From a virus: a stretch of DNA of 20,070 nucleotides. Of the stretch, positions 5,060-19,824 are shown one piece after another. The notes under the pieces are model-generated. The model saw only the letters and a list, made by a program, of their open reading frames with translations. It searched no databases and had not been told where the DNA came from. A program made the position numbers and the translations under genes. The stretch covers positions 1 to 20,070 of the IMG/VR virus record IMGVR_UViG_3300042868_006980; one strand, 5' to 3'. Every line of letters begins with the position of its first letter. The first letter of the stretch is position 1.

Positions 5060-6013
5060 TCATCTACATTGCTTGTTATCTAAACGACATTTTTTATCAA
5101 ATGTCAAATCTAACAAAAACATTCGGTTATCTTCGGGTTTAGAATCATATCTAAAGTTCTGATATTGCACGCCATCTACTGTTACGTAATTGCCTCTCAC
5201 AGCTTGTTGTAGTAACTTAATGTAAAACGGTGGCACAGCGCCCGAAATAATACCGTAATTTTCTGTTATATCTTTACTAATAACTACATTTCTATCATTT
5301 TCTGTAATCGCTTCAGTATCGCCAAAGAACTCAACAGTTCCAAAGATTCGAAGCGAATTATAAAACGGTGTATTATTAGAACCTAAATAGTTAGTCAAAG
5401 TTCCGTAAAAATTACCGTTACAATCATAATTTGCGTATGTGCTATAAATTAGCGAAGTGTCGTTTAAGTTTCCACAACCTTCAACTTCTTTATAGTATTC
5501 AGTCCAAAGAACCTTATCTGTTTCGGGTTCTAAGGTTATCTGATTTATTTTAAAATATTCAATTCTTAATCTAAAACAATCCAAATCAGCGGGGAATAAA
5601 CCTGTATTAACAAACCAAGTTTGAATACTACCTGTTGCAAGACTTTGCCCTACATAGTAACTATCTGAAAATACATCTATATATTTACTAATTTCAGTAC
5701 CGCAACAATCAAATAAACTAACTTGCACATAATGCGATGTACTTGTAGTAGTAAAAAAGCCTGCTACCAAAACATCATTAGGCTGATTATATAAATCTGT
5801 AACTTGAGTTTGAAACGGAATAATATCGCCCTCAACATACGGAATATAAAATGGTAAATCAGAACCGCATAAGTTACAATTCCAAGCATCATTAAAATTC
5901 TGCATTAAATTACCCGGTAAAATAGGGCAGGCATACCGAATCGGTACGGGCTGCCTAAACGAATAAGTCCTACTAATTTCGGGCGTGTATGTTATTGGAT
6001 AATTTAAAATCAT
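5060..6013 (-). CDS. Hypothetical beta-rich structural protein, probable tail component
   Basis: I take ATG at 6013 (MILNYPITYTPEIS...), giving 317 residues. An in-frame TTG at 6031 is possible but lies inside a promoter box and would need a transcript starting upstream. The protein is rich in aromatic residues, Asn and Thr, with scattered cysteines, including WNCNLCGSDLPFY and FDCCGTEISKYI, and reads as beta strands throughout without a signal peptide or membrane segment. I know no named family. It lies between the 815-residue tail protein and the Big_2 structural protein on the same strand, so a tail-tip or tail-fibre-associated role is likely but not shown by a motif. The C-terminus is basic (RLDNKQCR). 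Confidence 0.7.
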   Translation of the reverse strand: MILNYPITYTPEISRTYSFRQPVPIRYACPILPGNLMQNFNDAWNCNLCGSDLPFYIPYVEGDIIPFQTQVTDLYNQPNDVLVAGFFTTTSTSHYVQVSLFDCCGTEISKYIDVFSDSYYVGQSLATGSIQTWFVNTGLFPADLDCFRLRIEYFKINQITLEPETDKVLWTEYYKEVEGCGNLNDTSLIYSTYANYDCNGNFYGTLTNYLGSNNTPFYNSLRIFGTVEFFGDTEAITENDRNVVISKDITENYGIISGAVPPFYIKLLQQAVRGNYVTVDGVQYQNFRYDSKPEDNRMFLLDLTFDKKCRLDNKQCR

Positions 6014-6020
6014 ATATTCG

Positions 6021-6028
6021 CAAAGATA
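6021..6028 (-). promoter_or_regulatory. Bacteroidetes -7 box TATCTTTG before the 317-residue tail gene
   Basis: The minus strand reads TATCTTTG at 6028-6021, an exact match to TAnnTTTG. A -33 TTTG at the right distance (about 6048) is not visible, the region being only A and T. The next ATG is at 6013, so transcription from here would leave a leader of only a few bases. The only gap of any size in this part of the operon (6014-6053) is occupied by the box. Confidence 0.45.
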
Positions 6029-6053
6029 CAAATAAATATTAAATTAAAAAATT

Positions 6054-8501
6054 TTATCCTAAATCGCTACATTTATAGTTGTTACTAAAAGTACCTAAAG
6101 GCGGTAATGCAGGCGCGGGCAATGGAACAGGCATAAGTATTTCGTGTCTAATTGTGTGCGGACCTGTGCCCGGGTCAAAGTTAGCATCAACTACAAACCT
6201 ATAATAAGCCGTTCCTATTGTTTCGTTTACTTTTATTGCAGTAACTACATTGCCCGCATAACTTAAAACGCCTACAGGGTTATTAGCATTATCTACAAAG
6301 TTATTTTGAACAATTGTTAAACCGCCTACATAATCGGGATGCGCTAAAATTTCAGCTATTACAAGCGTTGGATTACCTGTAATGCTCCACAAAGGCAAAA
6401 CCCCTATAACGCGGAAAGTTGATGTAGTTGTAAAAGCCGTTAAGCCGATAGGGCAATAATCGGGAACTTGTTGGAATGCTATTGCAGTAACCCAGTAACG
6501 CTGACCTAATGTAAGTTGTTGCACATTTATTTTAAATACTGCAAAATCATCTGTACCAAATGAAGCATCAACATCATCAAGTTTACCGCTTACTAACTGT
6601 TGCATTTGAATAGTTATAGGCTGCCAACTTGCTTCTTCTTCAATGGCATTATTATTTGTATCGCCTAATTCGTTTGCGGGGTAAATGGTAGCTATTAAGT
6701 TAATAGAACCTATGAATGTAGCATCTTTTTCTACTTCGGCTATAATCTGGTCGGCATCGCAAATATCAATTATTTCTGTTTTGATGCCTAAAATATAATC
6801 TTCTAAATCATAGAACCGAACGGCTAATAAGTTAGGGGTAACCGCATCATTTTCGAAAACATCAACATCTAATTTTTGAACAAAGTCTATTTGTGTTAAT
6901 TGAGTAATGCCGTTAACCGATGTAGGCTGATTCATGCTAACAGTCCATGTTATTTCGGTTGATGTACCTGCATATTCTTCAGCTATTCTAAAGATGCAAT
7001 CTAAAACTAAGTCGTTAACTGTATCGGTTATAATAGTCATATCAGCCGTTGTAATTGCAGGGCTTGCAGGTATGTAGCCTTGCACTTGATTAACAACGCC
7101 CGGCACATTTGTAAGTTTGCAGATTATGCCCGCAATGCTACCATCAAAAGTGCCTGTTAAACCTAAAGCAGTTAAAGCCGTTGCATAACTTAGCTTGTCA
7201 ATATCTAAACGCGCCTTAATACGTTGGTGAGCTGCTATTGTTAATTCGTTGCCGCTATACTCAGTATTATAAGTGCTAAGATAACCTGTTAACGTAGGTA
7301 TTGCAGGCGGCGTATAAGTAGCCGATAATAATGGGCTGATATGCGCCGTTGGCTGGTCTACGTTTGCGCTATCATGAATGTTTACTACTAAATAATATTG
7401 ACCGTTTATTTGTAGTTGTGTACCATCAATTACAAACTGCACTTCAATGTCATCGGCTAAAGGTACGTTTTCAAACCAATCTGAAGGCGAATAAATAGCG
7501 CCGTTTAGTTGACCGCTTCCCGGTGTCGCTTGCGGTATAATAGCATCAGAAAGGCTTAAATCAGATACAAAGTTAGCGGCGTTTGTAGTGTTGTCAACCC
7601 TAAATAATAGAACGCGTACATCTGAAATAGGGTCATTATTTACAGAACCGTTATAGGCTGCACCCCTTAATAAGATACGAACGTTATTTGCTTCGCCTAC
7701 TGCTAACTGATTATTTGCAATGGTAAATATTGCGTTTGGTATTGTTGTTTGATTAGGTTGCGCCGCTGTTGCTGTTGCATCGGTAAGTAGTGGTAAACTT
7801 GCAGCTATTTGTGATGCTGAACTAATTTCAAGTTCACGCATGTAACGCATCAATAAGCTATAACCTAAATAGTCTGAATTATACCAACGTGCTTCAACAG
7901 GCAAGTTTAAGAAATTGCCACCACCAGGTGTAGTAGGTATGGCCGAAAAACCCGATGGGTCAAATACGCGCGTAGCAATACCAAAGTTTTTAGCAGTATT
8001 ATAAATGCTTTGAAACTGATTATTCTGCAGGCTTAGAATAGATGTTAAAAATCTACTGACATTGGTATTACTTGAATTGCCAAATATAAAGTTAGTAGTA
8101 TCATTTGTAACGTAAAATTCAAATACTATTGTAGCTATATCATATGGCGCGCCATTACTCGACATTTCGCAATAGATATTTTCTAAAGCTGGATTTGAAA
8201 TATTTAATACAGCCTGTTGTACTGTAGTGCTTAATGGGTTTAGTGTTTGGTATCCAAAATCAAAAGCGTTGGTCTGATTTGATAAAACAAATAAACCAGG
8301 GTTAAACCTTAGAAACTTATTTAAAAAGCTATTAGCGCCACTACTTGTAATAGTTAGCGTTAAACGTATTTTATTACCTATTGCAAAGCCTTCGATAGGT
8401 GTGGCGGGTATTGTAGTGCTATCAAATGTAGCTATATTGTAAAGCACATTACCGCTGCTATCAATGCAATCTAATTGTATATCATCGTAAGTATAAGACA
8501 T
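6054..8501 (-). CDS. Large beta-rich tail protein (putative tail tip or receptor-binding component)
   Basis: The 815-residue protein starts with ATG at 8501, overlapping the stop of the putative hub gene by one base (TAATG). It is rich in Thr, Asn, Ala and Ile, almost free of cysteine, and has alternating beta strands typical of chained Ig- or FN3-like domains. Two stretches resemble each other: one with GQYYLVVNIHD (about residues 380) and one with GQRYWVTAIAF (about 680), both preceded by long strands and acidic loops, as in repeated FN3-like units. There is no recognised enzymatic motif. By position after the hub it is expected to be part of the tail tip or a fibre that meets the cell surface. 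Function is inferred from context. Confidence 0.7.
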   Translation of the reverse strand: MSYTYDDIQLDCIDSSGNVLYNIATFDSTTIPATPIEGFAIGNKIRLTLTITSSGANSFLNKFLRFNPGLFVLSNQTNAFDFGYQTLNPLSTTVQQAVLNISNPALENIYCEMSSNGAPYDIATIVFEFYVTNDTTNFIFGNSSNTNVSRFLTSILSLQNNQFQSIYNTAKNFGIATRVFDPSGFSAIPTTPGGGNFLNLPVEARWYNSDYLGYSLLMRYMRELEISSASQIAASLPLLTDATATAAQPNQTTIPNAIFTIANNQLAVGEANNVRILLRGAAYNGSVNNDPISDVRVLLFRVDNTTNAANFVSDLSLSDAIIPQATPGSGQLNGAIYSPSDWFENVPLADDIEVQFVIDGTQLQINGQYYLVVNIHDSANVDQPTAHISPLLSATYTPPAIPTLTGYLSTYNTEYSGNELTIAAHQRIKARLDIDKLSYATALTALGLTGTFDGSIAGIICKLTNVPGVVNQVQGYIPASPAITTADMTIITDTVNDLVLDCIFRIAEEYAGTSTEITWTVSMNQPTSVNGITQLTQIDFVQKLDVDVFENDAVTPNLLAVRFYDLEDYILGIKTEIIDICDADQIIAEVEKDATFIGSINLIATIYPANELGDTNNNAIEEEASWQPITIQMQQLVSGKLDDVDASFGTDDFAVFKINVQQLTLGQRYWVTAIAFQQVPDYCPIGLTAFTTTSTFRVIGVLPLWSITGNPTLVIAEILAHPDYVGGLTIVQNNFVDNANNPVGVLSYAGNVVTAIKVNETIGTAYYRFVVDANFDPGTGPHTIRHEILMPVPLPAPALPPLGTFSNNYKCSDLG

Positions 8502-10159
8502 TAAATTAAACCGTTTATAGTTAATGAATTATTATTTGTATCGTAAGTTATCTCAGTAATTTGCACTTGACCTTGCGGCGTTGTAACGTATTTGTCAATA
8601 TCTAAACTTGTAAGTAAATCACAATCAGCTGTAATTGATATTGTAACTTTTCGAGTTTTTACCGATGTTAAACGTGGGTCGTCAATGTATAGAAGGCGTT
8701 GGTAGGCTGTGTCGTATTGTTGGCCAGCCGAATCTACTAATGGGTTTTCTCTTACATGCCATTTGTAATTGTAAACCCGTAAACCGTTTGAATTTATAAA
8801 AAAATCGGGTACGGCATAACCCCTATCAAAATTTAAAATATCTTGGTCAAGTATTGTTTCAATATTTATTAACTTAGGAAAATTAGATATACCCTTTTCT
8901 AAAAACATTGCATATCTATTTTCATTATCTTGTACAAACGGATAAAACGTAACATAAAACGGTTTATCTATTGGGTTAGTATCTGGCGCATTTGCATCAA
9001 ATCTAAATTGAGCTGCTGAAAATGTAAACGTTTTACTTTTTAATCCTACCTGCTGTGGGTTATCGGTTGGATTCCAATCTATAACGCGGTCAGTCCAACG
9101 GCGCGCTACTTCATCTCCACTATTATCAACGCCATCTTTAGGGTATTCGTATTCAGCATAGGCTGCAGGGCGTTCGCCTAATGATTCAAAGCAAATAGAT
9201 AATAGCTGGTCATTTTGTAAATTATCAGTATTAAACCATTCAACACCTACAAAATAATCTTTGCGTTCAATCTGTAAAACATTATTTACAACGCGCCATT
9301 CTATATTCCATTCTTTTAAAGCATCTAAGAATTGAACGCCGTTTAAGTTTGGCGAATTATCATCAATAGCTGAAAATCTTGAAGACGTGCCCGACCACGG
9401 TCTAAATGCCATATCAATTCTAACTGTATTGTGATAATAACCGCCCACATCAAACAAAGAACTTTGATAACCTAAACCGCAAATTTTACATAGGTTTCTA
9501 AATTGGCTATCTAAAAAAGGTGCTACATGTTTTTTATTACAACCTACTATAAAGTTAGATAAATCATCAAAAATGTTTTGACCATTACCAGCTATTAAAT
9601 TACCTAATTGAAAAAATAATAAGATAGGCGCTGATACTACAAAAATAAATATGCCTATAATCATTATTGCTTCTTGTGTTGCAGCGGGTTTAACATCATT
9701 GCAATAATACATCCACGGCGCACGTCTAAATTCATCTATGCCCCGATAATTTCTACCTGTTTCCCACGGAAAATGATTTTTTAAACATCTAATTGCTAAC
9801 GCATCCTGACTATTATCAACTACCGTAACTTGCGCTTCACATGTCGGGAACGTACACCAACGAACCGAACCGCCTTCAATTTTACCCGTAAATAATAAGC
9901 GGTCCGAACCATCGGGATTAGTGCAGCATGTATCGTAAATTAAAACCTGTATAGCTGCTATATTTGGATTTGGCGCGTTTATTATTTGCTGCCTAACATA
10001 TTCGTATGTATCGCCTACAACGGTTAATTCAGGCGCAAAACTAAATGCAGAATCACCCGCTTCATCTTTGCGGCGAAAAACAAAACTTGCAGACTCAGTA
10101 CCGTTAAAGTTATCTAAGTCTTGCGGTATGCCATCGAAAAATATTAGTAAGCCGTTCAT
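8501..10159 (-). CDS. Putative tail hub / tail-associated structural protein with an internal hydrophobic segment
   Basis: This 552-residue protein begins at ATG 10159 in an ATGA overlap with the upstream membrane-protein gene. The N-terminal domain (1-120) looks like a beta-barrel of the kind found in distal tail or hub proteins (GLLIFFDGIPQDL, strands ending in FTGKIEGG). Residues about 165-190 form a strongly hydrophobic stretch (IMIIGIFIFVVSAPILLFF) long enough to span a membrane. A cysteine cluster surrounds it (C153, C207, C224, C227). The C-terminal half is again beta-rich and ends in a short ITEITYDTNNNSLTINGLI-like barrel strand pair typical of hub proteins. Location two to three genes after the tape measure supports a tail-end role. 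Family not named with certainty. Confidence 0.65.
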   Translation of the reverse strand: MNGLLIFFDGIPQDLDNFNGTESASFVFRRKDEAGDSAFSFAPELTVVGDTYEYVRQQIINAPNPNIAAIQVLIYDTCCTNPDGSDRLLFTGKIEGGSVRWCTFPTCEAQVTVVDNSQDALAIRCLKNHFPWETGRNYRGIDEFRRAPWMYYCNDVKPAATQEAIMIIGIFIFVVSAPILLFFQLGNLIAGNGQNIFDDLSNFIVGCNKKHVAPFLDSQFRNLCKICGLGYQSSLFDVGGYYHNTVRIDMAFRPWSGTSSRFSAIDDNSPNLNGVQFLDALKEWNIEWRVVNNVLQIERKDYFVGVEWFNTDNLQNDQLLSICFESLGERPAAYAEYEYPKDGVDNSGDEVARRWTDRVIDWNPTDNPQQVGLKSKTFTFSAAQFRFDANAPDTNPIDKPFYVTFYPFVQDNENRYAMFLEKGISNFPKLINIETILDQDILNFDRGYAVPDFFINSNGLRVYNYKWHVRENPLVDSAGQQYDTAYQRLLYIDDPRLTSVKTRKVTISITADCDLLTSLDIDKYVTTPQGQVQITEITYDTNNNSLTINGLI

Positions 10160-10614
10160 TTAAGTATTGAATATGTTAACGCCCCCAAAGATACAGATAT
10201 AAACGCGTAACTTGTTATTTTCCACATTTTTTTCAGACGTGTTTGTTTTTTCAGTTGCTTTTTATAGTCATTGCATATTATTGCATCGCGTTCATAGCTT
10301 TTAATCATAGCGTTTTTTAATAATAGCATGTCGCTTTGTGTTTGGTGCTGTACTTTCATATCAGCTATAAGCCTTTCAGATTTATTCAGCAACGCATCAC
10401 AATCAACGGCCCTATCAACGCATTCGCCATACGCAATTTTATAAACTTCTAAGCTATCAAAACGCAATGCGATGAACTCAGCATATTCGCGGCTAATTAA
10501 AAAACCGTTATTTACCTTTGTAATCTGACAAGAGGCGGCTAATGAGCAAAGTATCAGTAATGTCGCTATAATTAACACTCGGTATTTGAATAATCTTAAT
10601 TCGGTGTAAGTCAT
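10156..10614 (-). CDS. Small membrane protein or lipoprotein, candidate outer-membrane spanin partner
   Basis: The 152-residue protein starts at ATG 10614 inside the 3-prime end of the upstream gene, overlapping it by 107 bases in another frame. It has a basic start (RLFKYR), a hydrophobic core (VLIIATLLILCSLAA) and then S-C at 28-29, which fits a lipobox. The middle (about 45-130) is helical and charged, and a second hydrophobic helix (ITSYAFISVSLGALTYSIL) ends the protein. An Rz1-like o-spanin is a lipoprotein whose gene overlaps the inner-membrane partner, which matches the arrangement here; the C-terminal membrane helix does not match. A tail-associated membrane protein is the other possibility. 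Confidence 0.65.
   Translation of the reverse strand: MTYTELRLFKYRVLIIATLLILCSLAASCQITKVNNGFLISREYAEFIALRFDSLEVYKIAYGECVDRAVDCDALLNKSERLIADMKVQHQTQSDMLLLKNAMIKSYERDAIICNDYKKQLKKQTRLKKMWKITSYAFISVSLGALTYSILK
10186..10193 (-). promoter_or_regulatory. Possible -7 box TATCTTTG upstream of the putative hub gene
   Basis: The minus strand has an exact TATCTTTG at 10193-10186, 26 bases before the ATG at 10159, within the coding sequence of the preceding gene. No -33 TTTG is visible at the expected distance, and the triplets code for residues S-L-G in that gene, so chance is a real possibility. Confidence 0.2.
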
Positions 10615-17524: not shown

Positions 17525-18976
17525 TTATAGTTTAATATCTTGACAAAACGTATTAAGCAAGTATCTAAGATTATCTAATAAATCCGCTTGCCTTTCTTCT
17601 CCTTTGCCTTTAATGATTCGGCGGCTGTTATCTGATTTGATACGTAAACAGTCCATACGCAAGCCTGGGCATTTATCTTCATATATTTGAAAATCTGGGC
17701 ACATGCTTATAATAGTATTTGTTTGAACGTAACTTTCAGCGTGTAACGGGTTTGCCTTAGGAACTACAAAGAAACGCGCGGGCAGTTGCAATTCTTCTTG
17801 TATAATTTCGTAGTATGTTTTAGATACGCGCTGCCTACCATCGGACCTATCACCGCTCGCATCACCTGTAATCAGTAGCGGAATAGTGCAGGGATAAATA
17901 GCCGTATCAGACCATCGGCCTATCTTTTTATTTGTTTCACTAAATATCCATTCCCTAAACGCCTGGCATGTATCGTAAATAGATGCTTCACCGCGTTCTT
18001 CACTACCTATCTTAAATTCTTTAATGATATGCACGCCGTACCGATAACGCGAACGTGCTGATAGGTCGGGCGGCAATACGGTTTTTTTCATCACCGCCGC
18101 GGTCATGGGTATTTTGTTAAAGTCAAAACTAACATAAATCTGTTCCGTTTCCCAGCTGATTTTTTTTGATTGCTGAAATACTTTTTGCTGAATGCTTTTG
18201 TCCTTTAGAACATAAACCCATGCTTCGCCTGAATAGTCAACAAAAACAGATTTGTATTCTTGTTCAAACGTTAGGCGGTCAAGGTCGCGGCTGGCATCGG
18301 CTACTTCAGCGGGGTCGATTGCAGGGTTATCGGTTGTTTCCATTCGAAACGTTATCCAACTTTCGCTTCCGTTTTCCGATTGAGGTAAATCAATATCGCC
18401 GTAACAGTTACGTTCCACGTTACCAGCAATAGCGCCATTTCTGCATAGTTCATACCAATAATTATCTTTTCCAGCAGCTGTACCAATGAAAAAAGCCTCA
18501 CCTTTGAAGTCAGTCAAGGTAGGGCGGGCAACTGTTTTCCAGTGGTATTCTAATATATGGCTCGGTATCTTTTGCGTTTCCTCGTAAATAACGCGGTGAT
18601 ATTTTCGCCCGCGCCCTTTATCTTTTCGCCCTTCATCGCCAATAGACCACACTTCTAAAACGCCGCCGTTTAAAAACTGCATTATCTTTGATGTTTCATC
18701 CTTATGCGATATGATGCCGCCTTCGTTACTTAGCTTATAAGTATCAACTATCTTTGCCCAGCTTTGCGCAAAGTCTTTGAAGTCATCTACAAATATACCT
18801 ACGAACTTACCTTCGAATACTGCAGGTGAAATTAACGGTAACGCAACCGATGTAATCAATTCAGTCTTACCAAATCGCCGCGCACACACTATACAATTAA
18901 AACGGCGCTTATTATTTAAAATGCGCTGTTGCCCTACGTGTGGCCTGTATAGTGTTATGTCTATATTTCGCGGCAC
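17525..18976 (-). CDS. terL: Terminase large subunit (DNA packaging ATPase and nuclease)
   Basis: At 483 residues this is a standard large terminase. It has a deviant Walker A (CARRFGKTE, 31-39), a Walker B region with RVIYEET at 128-134, where the usual D is replaced by E132 or the pair E132-E133 is used, and a coupling motif GTAAG at 165-169. The nuclease half shows D285 in VSFDFNK, D372 and D376 in TGDASGD, and an aspartate pair in QADLLDNLRY (D465, D468), matching the RNase H-like two-metal centre. It pumps DNA into the head and cuts it. The start is GTG at 18976, the first possible; it overlaps the TAG of the small subunit by one base, which implies coupling. The next Met is codon 100. 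Confidence 0.95.
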   Translation of the reverse strand: MPRNIDITLYRPHVGQQRILNNKRRFNCIVCARRFGKTELITSVALPLISPAVFEGKFVGIFVDDFKDFAQSWAKIVDTYKLSNEGGIISHKDETSKIMQFLNGGVLEVWSIGDEGRKDKGRGRKYHRVIYEETQKIPSHILEYHWKTVARPTLTDFKGEAFFIGTAAGKDNYWYELCRNGAIAGNVERNCYGDIDLPQSENGSESWITFRMETTDNPAIDPAEVADASRDLDRLTFEQEYKSVFVDYSGEAWVYVLKDKSIQQKVFQQSKKISWETEQIYVSFDFNKIPMTAAVMKKTVLPPDLSARSRYRYGVHIIKEFKIGSEERGEASIYDTCQAFREWIFSETNKKIGRWSDTAIYPCTIPLLITGDASGDRSDGRQRVSKTYYEIIQEELQLPARFFVVPKANPLHAESYVQTNTIISMCPDFQIYEDKCPGLRMDCLRIKSDNSRRIIKGKGEERQADLLDNLRYLLNTFCQDIKL

Positions 18977-19401
18977 TACTTATCAGGTGGGTACTGAATG
19001 TTTATGTTAATGTTTTTATCGTCTTGCGTTTCTGCTTTAGGTTCTATAATGCCATAGTTGTGACCTAAAAGTAACTTAGTCATTTGCGGATTTGACTTAC
19101 CATCTAAGCCGCGTTCTACCTTGTTTGTTAGTATTTTAGACTTTGCACGTGCGATTAAAACCGAAAAAGCATCGCGCGTTTGATAGTTCAAAAGCGTGTC
19201 TGCATCGCAATCTAAGAAATCAGCAAGACCGTAAACAGTATAAGGTATTGGGTCGGGCAAATCTATTACCTCATAATAGTCACGTGTTTTTACAACTTCT
19301 TTTTTAGTACGTGATTCACAGTAATCAAAATATGAATCTATTTTACTTTGCAATTCTTCAGGACTTTTAAACTTCATTGGGCGACCGCCTAAATCTTTCA
19401 T
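18976..19401 (-). CDS. terS: Terminase small subunit
   Basis: The 141-residue protein starts with GGRPMKFKSPEELQSKIDSY, the opening signature of the P22 gp3-like/Bacteroidetes small terminase group. A helix-turn-helix follows (about 54-74: YTVYGLADFLDCDADTLLNY), which is expected to bind the packaging-initiation site, then a helical multimerisation region (AKSKILTNKVERG) and an acidic, Asn-rich tail. It precedes and overlaps the large subunit, as usual. ATG at 19401 is supported by an A-rich leader (ACGAAAATATG), the style of the whole window. Small terminases often bind near their own gene, so the repeats upstream are a possible target. Confidence 0.9.
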   Translation of the reverse strand: MKDLGGRPMKFKSPEELQSKIDSYFDYCESRTKKEVVKTRDYYEVIDLPDPIPYTVYGLADFLDCDADTLLNYQTRDAFSVLIARAKSKILTNKVERGLDGKSNPQMTKLLLGHNYGIIEPKAETQDDKNININIQYPPDK

Positions 19402-19406
19402 ATTTT

Positions 19407-19496
19407 CGTTTTAAGAAACTTTTAATAAGTTTTGATATATATACACCACTTTAATATAAAAATGTCTTAAAATGCCGTTTAAATACGTTTTAAGAC
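19407..19496. repeat. Inverted repeat GTCTTAAAA/TTTTAAGAC with a third half-site
   Basis: GTCTTAAAA at 19464-19472 and TTTTAAGAC at 19488-19496 are perfect inverted arms of nine bases around a 15-base spacer. CGTTTTAAGA at 19407-19416 repeats 19486-19495, 79 bases away, close to the start of the small terminase. They may be regulator or terminase binding sites, or the stem may be an attenuator of the minus-strand transcript. The pattern is direct; the role is inferred. Confidence 0.55.
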
Positions 19497-19540
19497 TATA
19501 TCTATATATAAATTGATTTATTATTATTATTTATTATTAA

Positions 19541-19750
19541 GTGTAACATTAGTAACATAATTGTAACATGTAAAGTATTGATTATTATAGTATGTTACAC
19601 TTGTTTACAATGTTACACCTATTCACATATATATAATGAATTTTTTTTTAAATAAAATATATGCGCGTAAGTGCGTAACAATGTTAACAAACGTAACAAG
19701 CTATGTAAATCAGCATTTTATAAGTTACGTTTCAGTTACGTATGTTACAA
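19541..19750. repeat. Array of GTAACA/TGTTAC motifs (iteron- or operator-like)
   Basis: About ten GTAAC or GTTAC cores are packed in 210 bases in alternating groups: forward at 19543, 19552 and 19563; reverse at 19594 and 19612; forward at 19675 and 19693 with a palindromic GTTAAC between; reverse at 19724, 19735 and 19744. The best copies share nine bases (GTGTAACAT at 19541-19549, its complement at 19592-19600 and 19610-19618). Forward groups followed by inverted groups give two dyads. This looks like a binding platform for one protein: a replication-origin iteron set, a late-operon control region, or the packaging-initiation site. Nothing in the window identifies the binder. Confidence 0.65.
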
Positions 19751-19782
19751 TTTCAAATAAAAAACAGCTGAACTTTTTTGAA

Positions 19783-19799
19783 CAGCGGTTAAGCCGCTG
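19783..19799 (-). terminator. Hairpin at the end of the HNH-like gene
   Basis: CAGCGG-TTAAG-CCGCTG is a perfect six-pair stem with a five-base loop, 25 bases downstream of the HNH-like gene's stop on the minus strand. It is GC-rich within AT-rich DNA. After the stem the minus strand reads TTCAAAAAAGTTC and then CAGCTGTTTTTT, so a weak U-tract follows at a distance. A terminator is the likely meaning. Confidence 0.45.
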
Positions 19800-19824
19800 G
19801 CAATGCAAAAGTAAATGTTATTTT

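Follow-up and report, generated by a model that had tools for sequence, protein, structure and literature searches.

In phage P4, a satellite whose repeats are split between two regions, a single protein, alpha (with ori/crr), unites primase, helicase, and iteron binding. Lambda cosB and P1 pac have short boxes surrounding IHF sites close to the terminase genes, and boxes around an IHF site are also found in P1 parS and lambda attP. PICI origins contain two iteron sets on either side of an AT-rich region (PMC6092414). As summarized in PMC7581432 (citing Ubeda et al., 2007), the C-terminal domain of SaPI Rep binds iterons located directly 3' of its gene. The SCCmec protein Cch2 likewise binds iterons beside its own gene through its C-terminal domain; these iterons read AAGTG and the published site consists of a few direct repeats (PMC7581432).

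The window analyzed in this study (the whole stretch of DNA) is a virus contig of 20,070 bp with a repeat array near its right end. The original prediction claimed a dense array between positions 19541 and 19750, with about ten copies of a six-base motif in the order forward, reverse, forward, reverse. The density was borne out: this 210-bp region contains 10 GTAAC/GTTAC cores, while dinucleotide shuffles gave a mean of 1.38 and a maximum of 7, with none of 2000 containing as many. The number of ten applies to this five-base core, but the exact hexamer (GTAACA/TGTTAC) occurs only eight times (shuffle mean 0.77, maximum 5, 0/2000 reaching eight). Outside the array, the window has densities of 0.15 GTAACA and 0.61 GTAAC per 210 bp, and the window-wide hexamer count is ordinary (22 versus 14 expected, 6/100 shuffles). 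Two variant sites (GTTAAC and TGTTTACA) fill gaps in the pattern, bringing the array to 12 sites in total. The alternating order is correct for the four blocks of three sites each, the first of them forward, but not site by site. The features of the region are:

17525–18976, minus strand: terL, a neighbor of the array
18976–19401, minus strand: terS, GP3_package family (Pfam), a neighbor and not the reader of the array
19402–19500, minus strand: leader-side element (...TTAAAGTGG...CTTAAAACG...) separating the AT tract from the next gene
19503–19540, no strand: AT tract of TAA/TTA triplet repeats adjoining the array, also beside the array in relatives
19543–19568, plus strand: triplet 1, GTAACA three times (19543–19548, 19552–19557, 19563–19568), at fixed offsets in relatives
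19571–19583, minus strand: IHF-like site AATCAATACTTTA (consensus WATCAANNNNTTR) in the 25–26 bp spacer of the terS-proximal block
19593–19616, minus strand: triplet 2, inverted, with TGTTAC (19593–19598), variant TGTTTACA (19602–19609), and TGTTAC (19611–19616)
19617–19674, no strand: AT-rich center between the blocks, 58 bp, 78% AT
19675–19698, plus strand: triplet 3, with GTAACA (19675–19680), variant GTTAAC (19683–19688), and GTAACA (19693–19698)
19708–19720, plus strand: second IHF-like site AATCAGCATTTTA, differing from the consensus WATCAANNNNTTR at one position
19724–19748, minus strand: triplet 4, inverted, with GTTAC (19724–19728), GTTAC (19735–19739), and TGTTAC (19743–19748)

The array thus consists of three sites, a spacer of 25–26 bp, three inverted sites, and an AT-rich center, followed by the mirror image. 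Two outcomes named beforehand as arguments against a dedicated site, an even spread of the motif across the genome and a lack of conservation in relatives, did not materialize: the motif is unevenly spread in the genomes of relatives and the array is conserved. Most of the 54 distinct arrays found in relatives have 12 sites at fixed offsets, with both spacers measuring 25–26 bp and a center of 56–80 bp that is variable in sequence. The original prediction had overlooked the mirror symmetry, the constant spacing, the IHF-like sequences in the spacers, and the variable AT-rich center.

An IHF-like consensus (WATCAANNNNTTR) is present in each spacer, in mirror orientation. Of the 18 distinct versions of the terS-proximal spacer, 17 match it (shuffling predicts 0.0068 per spacer), and the other spacer has an exact match in 12 of 23 (<0.01 expected per spacer), the versions stemming from related sequences and therefore not being independent counts. 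The four N positions of the consensus read TTAG, TACT, TTAC, or TAAG in the terS-proximal spacer, whereas its fixed letters are constant. Judged from sequence, both spacers carry putative IHF/HU sites at a fixed place; WATCAANNNNTTR is the consensus of E. coli IHF, and the host, probably a member of the Bacteroidetes (based on one MAG contig with TerL at 92%), may not use the same consensus. A search by DNA found no close isolate.

We regard the AT-rich center as a candidate melting region and the adjoining AT tract as a second candidate unwinding element. The leader-side element resembles, by eye, the same position in phages with other arrays, and a UTR, a promoter, or a packaging element are its candidate roles. 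In four contigs (L015, L016, L162, L164), the array-side element and terS are separated by an inserted small gene of HAD-like type (PKISFDYDGVL...). On the other side of the array, the minus strand at 19780–19813 shows a Bacteroidetes-type −7 element (TACTTTTGC) directly followed by hairpins and a T-run. Its terminator is near-perfect in relatives, a search of the element against Rfam gave no match, and it is possibly a short RNA or an attenuator. At the right end of the window, beyond the intergenic region, an HNH-like reading frame is cut off by the contig end.

In the window's family, the array lies just upstream of terS, a location that would suit a packaging site (pac/cos), with TerS assembling on TGTTAC sites around an IHF bend. 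The hexamers around an IHF-like site recall P1 pac and lambda cosB, and the motif also lies beside TerL in some unrelated phages. TerS is modular in this family, with a variable body containing a helix-turn-helix and a conserved tail (DDKNININIQYPP), in front of which the bodies appear to be swapped. The TGTTAC array precedes TerS of classes 1, 2, and 3 (36, 18, and 3 distinct upstream regions, respectively) and also class 4, with a body unrelated to the other classes. Class 1 TerS is in turn also paired with a quite different GTTTAG array (L051–L056 group), and in contig L464 the array is accompanied by a terminase unrelated in both subunits, TerS and TerL. Contigs L298 and L490 have the TerS region in common but not the motif, whereas L298 and L492 have the motif in common but different TerS bodies. 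On the basis of these swaps, TerS was rejected as the reader of the array. The array shares short boxes around IHF-like sites near terminase genes with lambda cosB and P1 pac, but does not follow TerS; co-variation with the DNA-binding part of TerS, as expected for a pac or cosB site, was not observed. It tracks neither TerS nor TerL, which contradicts packaging as its function and makes this reading very unlikely.

Genome ends were also considered: maps are circularly closed with differing break points, and contig ends, looked at as a test for cos, form no sharp cluster by eye. Contigs that end within terS were probably interrupted during assembly by allele swaps. The fourth TerS (L199, L201, L212) is 121 aa long and has an unrelated body with the same C-terminal tail (DDKNININIQYPPEAK); a ParB_N-methyltransferase gene lies between array and terS in these contigs. 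Sister lineages have other repeats upstream of terS, namely a (TA)n tract flanked by TGTTTAG boxes, and repeats of a TCTTAAG-like type accompanied by (TA)n (L157–L160 and L161/L162), which are probably the lineages' own origins. The related contig L052 contains an IHF consensus match.

The array follows the replication module and not the terminase. The primase-helicase gene is absent from the 20-kb contig of the window and its product is 571 aa long in close relatives. Contig L435 (TerS 100% and TerL 98% identical to the window) carries both primase and array, and in the window's family the array is located approximately 7 kb from the primase gene, beside terS. Six contigs (L461, L463, L464, L465, L468, L471) encode a primase and an SSAP (Rad52-like recombinase) with 54–57% and 71–78% identity, respectively. 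They have 11–12 sites beside the SSAP gene and no terminase of the window's family. In contig L146, a protein matching only the DnaB N-terminal domain (5645–6256) adjoins the primase-helicase gene in G008, and a small Cro-like HTH protein (9931–10203), detected in the array genomes compared but not in G012, heads the leftward early operon. The GC skew minimum near the array coincides with a change of gene direction, which confounds skew as a test for an origin.

More remote relatives of the primase, from four lineages, have their densest hexamer cluster directly 3' of the primase gene, with four different motifs: GTAACA (L298, L492), TATACA (L490), GTCAGC (L491), and CGGAAC (L499, L500). No other 350-nt segment of these loci matches the count of the 3' cluster; 15 of the 21 remote contigs have no dense cluster directly 3' of the gene. 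We also examined the stretch around the gene in 12 isolate phages with a related primase. A dense cluster is located just 3' of the primase gene in three of them (Bdellovibrio phi1422, Synechococcus S-H1, and Pararheinheimera KLER1-1); the phi1422 cluster comprises two blocks with 12 GGTAAC sites in all. Two isolates (Serratia MQ-4 and Acinetobacter Acjo_20) have a TGTTAC array elsewhere nearby, and the remaining seven show no cluster in the stretch read.

The metagenomic contigs L298, L490, and L492 link the array to one end of the primase. Along the primase gene, L298 and L490 share ~90% identity, but this drops to 46–70% over nucleotides 5451–5800 of L298, i.e., the last ~20 primase codons and the array. 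Beyond the array, from a GIY-YIG gene through to the terS region, identity is back at 88–100%. The iteron word is TGTAACA in L298 but TGTATACA in L490, where all iterons are of the latter type and both IHF-like sites are kept. Ten of the 27 amino-acid differences between the two primases fall within the last 28 residues (1.4 expected, P 1e-7), compared to one of 12 between L298 and L492, which have a common motif. A chimera is unlikely, since high identity is regained on both flanks and the exchanged piece is a complete array. In an AlphaFold model of the 571-aa protein (AF2 pLDDT 84), the last residues make up a beta-hairpin that ends a winged-helix-like domain. Foldseek matches of the model, at fold level only, include SCCmec Cch as the top hit (5dgk, E 1.6e-8), NrS-1, poxvirus D5/E5, and SaPI PriRep1 with dsDNA; the E value for 7pds is 7e-6. 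The initiator is thus predicted from its model to be a Rep/Cch-like helicase with a C-terminal winged helix. The joint exchange of primase wing and array lends indirect support to the predicted iteron binding by this protein. In this trio, natural recombination separates initiator, origin, and terminase, and indicates ~28 residues as the specificity determinant.

We are confident that the array is a replication origin of the phage, read by the phage's own primase-helicase. The 12 TGTTAC-type iterons would form two mirror-image blocks flanking the AT-rich center, each block being folded around an IHF/HU-type bend. The primase-helicase would bind the iterons via its C-terminal winged-helix tip, probably with one assembly per block, melt the AT-rich DNA, and then load as helicase, like SaPI Rep. 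Binding, bending, and melting of the DNA, and origin activity itself, are inferred. Among the roles originally proposed, a replication origin held up, the array tracking the replication module and being exchanged together with the primase tip, whereas the proposed pac/cos site, with the array tracking neither terminase subunit, did not.

The closest likeness is to PICI/SaPI origins, which the array fits in plan, initiator fold, and co-exchange. Both have an AT-rich region with a set of short iterons on either side, iteron words that vary between elements, and an initiator of the primase/helicase type, with C-terminal iteron binding that we presume for the phage protein. The remote relatives (L298, L490, L491, L492, L499, and phage phi1422) even have the array directly 3' of the primase gene. 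In the window's family, on the other hand, array and initiator gene are ~7 kb apart, and we therefore call it an origin working like a PICI origin without claiming membership. The phage arrays further differ in carrying IHF-like sites inside each iteron block and in belonging to tailed phages of ~43 kb, not satellites. The best reading is a PICI/SaPI-type origin in free-living phages that has moved away from its initiator gene. SCCmec Cch/Cch2 resembles the phage system in the initiator (5dgk), but represents a different element with a different motif and has few direct repeats instead of two mirror blocks. P4 alpha with ori/crr is similar in that one protein is proposed for primase, helicase, and iteron binding, but differs as a satellite with two separate repeat regions.

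A late-operon control region bound by a phage or host regulator would agree with the position between the early genes and the terminase operon, and with the promoter-like TAnnTTTGC just upstream, which leads into hairpins and a T-run (by eye). The same plan is found 3' of primase genes elsewhere, however, with a lineage-specific motif that is exchanged along with the tip of the primase, and an operator array would not usually have such a mirror-symmetric, AT-rich layout. No regulator was found to track the array, although array genomes alone yielded a 90-aa HTH gene. We consider such control very improbable as the main function; it may be a secondary role, as a side effect of the array's position. 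A role in partition or recombination (as a parS-like site, or as arms of the att type with IHF) is suggested by the boxes around an IHF site in P1 parS and lambda attP, but is extremely improbable, since the one ParB-like protein among the array genomes compared, that of G008, is accessory and missing in the others, and no integrase was recognized among the subset of proteins inspected.

The array plan with other motif words recurs in many unrelated viruses. TGTAACA triplets were found in at least 120 IMG/VR stretches, which among the matches listed fall into 59 groups without close proteins in common. The reversed motif ACAATGT, an imperfect control that itself contains the TGT...ACA spacing, was found in 50 stretches, indicating that tandem repeats alone produce a background. 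Inverted copies are nearby in 48 of the 119 TGTAACA loci among the matches listed, versus 4 of the 50 stretches with the reversed motif. Of the 10 largest genes adjoining the inverted type of TGTAACA array in unrelated phages, eight encode primase/helicases (several PHROG families) and two encode TerL, a tally without a base rate. An unrelated Firmicutes-like phage contig (L240, 2360–2680) has 13 GTTAC sites and an exact IHF-like site, with early genes on one side and an ArpU-like gene plus terminase on the other. The control scan yielded other iteron-like arrays with TGTGGACAA repeats (L379, L380, L402, L406), while the pattern matches in L211, L213, and L172 have only four sites each and form no array. 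A literature search for TGTTACA or TGTAACA in phages found nothing relevant.

The replication origins of most uncultivated phages are unknown, and the array plan offers a sequence rule for finding one together with its likely initiator. We lean slightly toward the view that the replicon class so far regarded as particular to PICIs is general in many tailed phages, with wing and origin forming an exchangeable specificity cassette and close relatives switching words to escape cross-initiation or satellites. The occurrence of the plan in free-living tailed phages, isolates included, bears on the source of the satellites' replicons.
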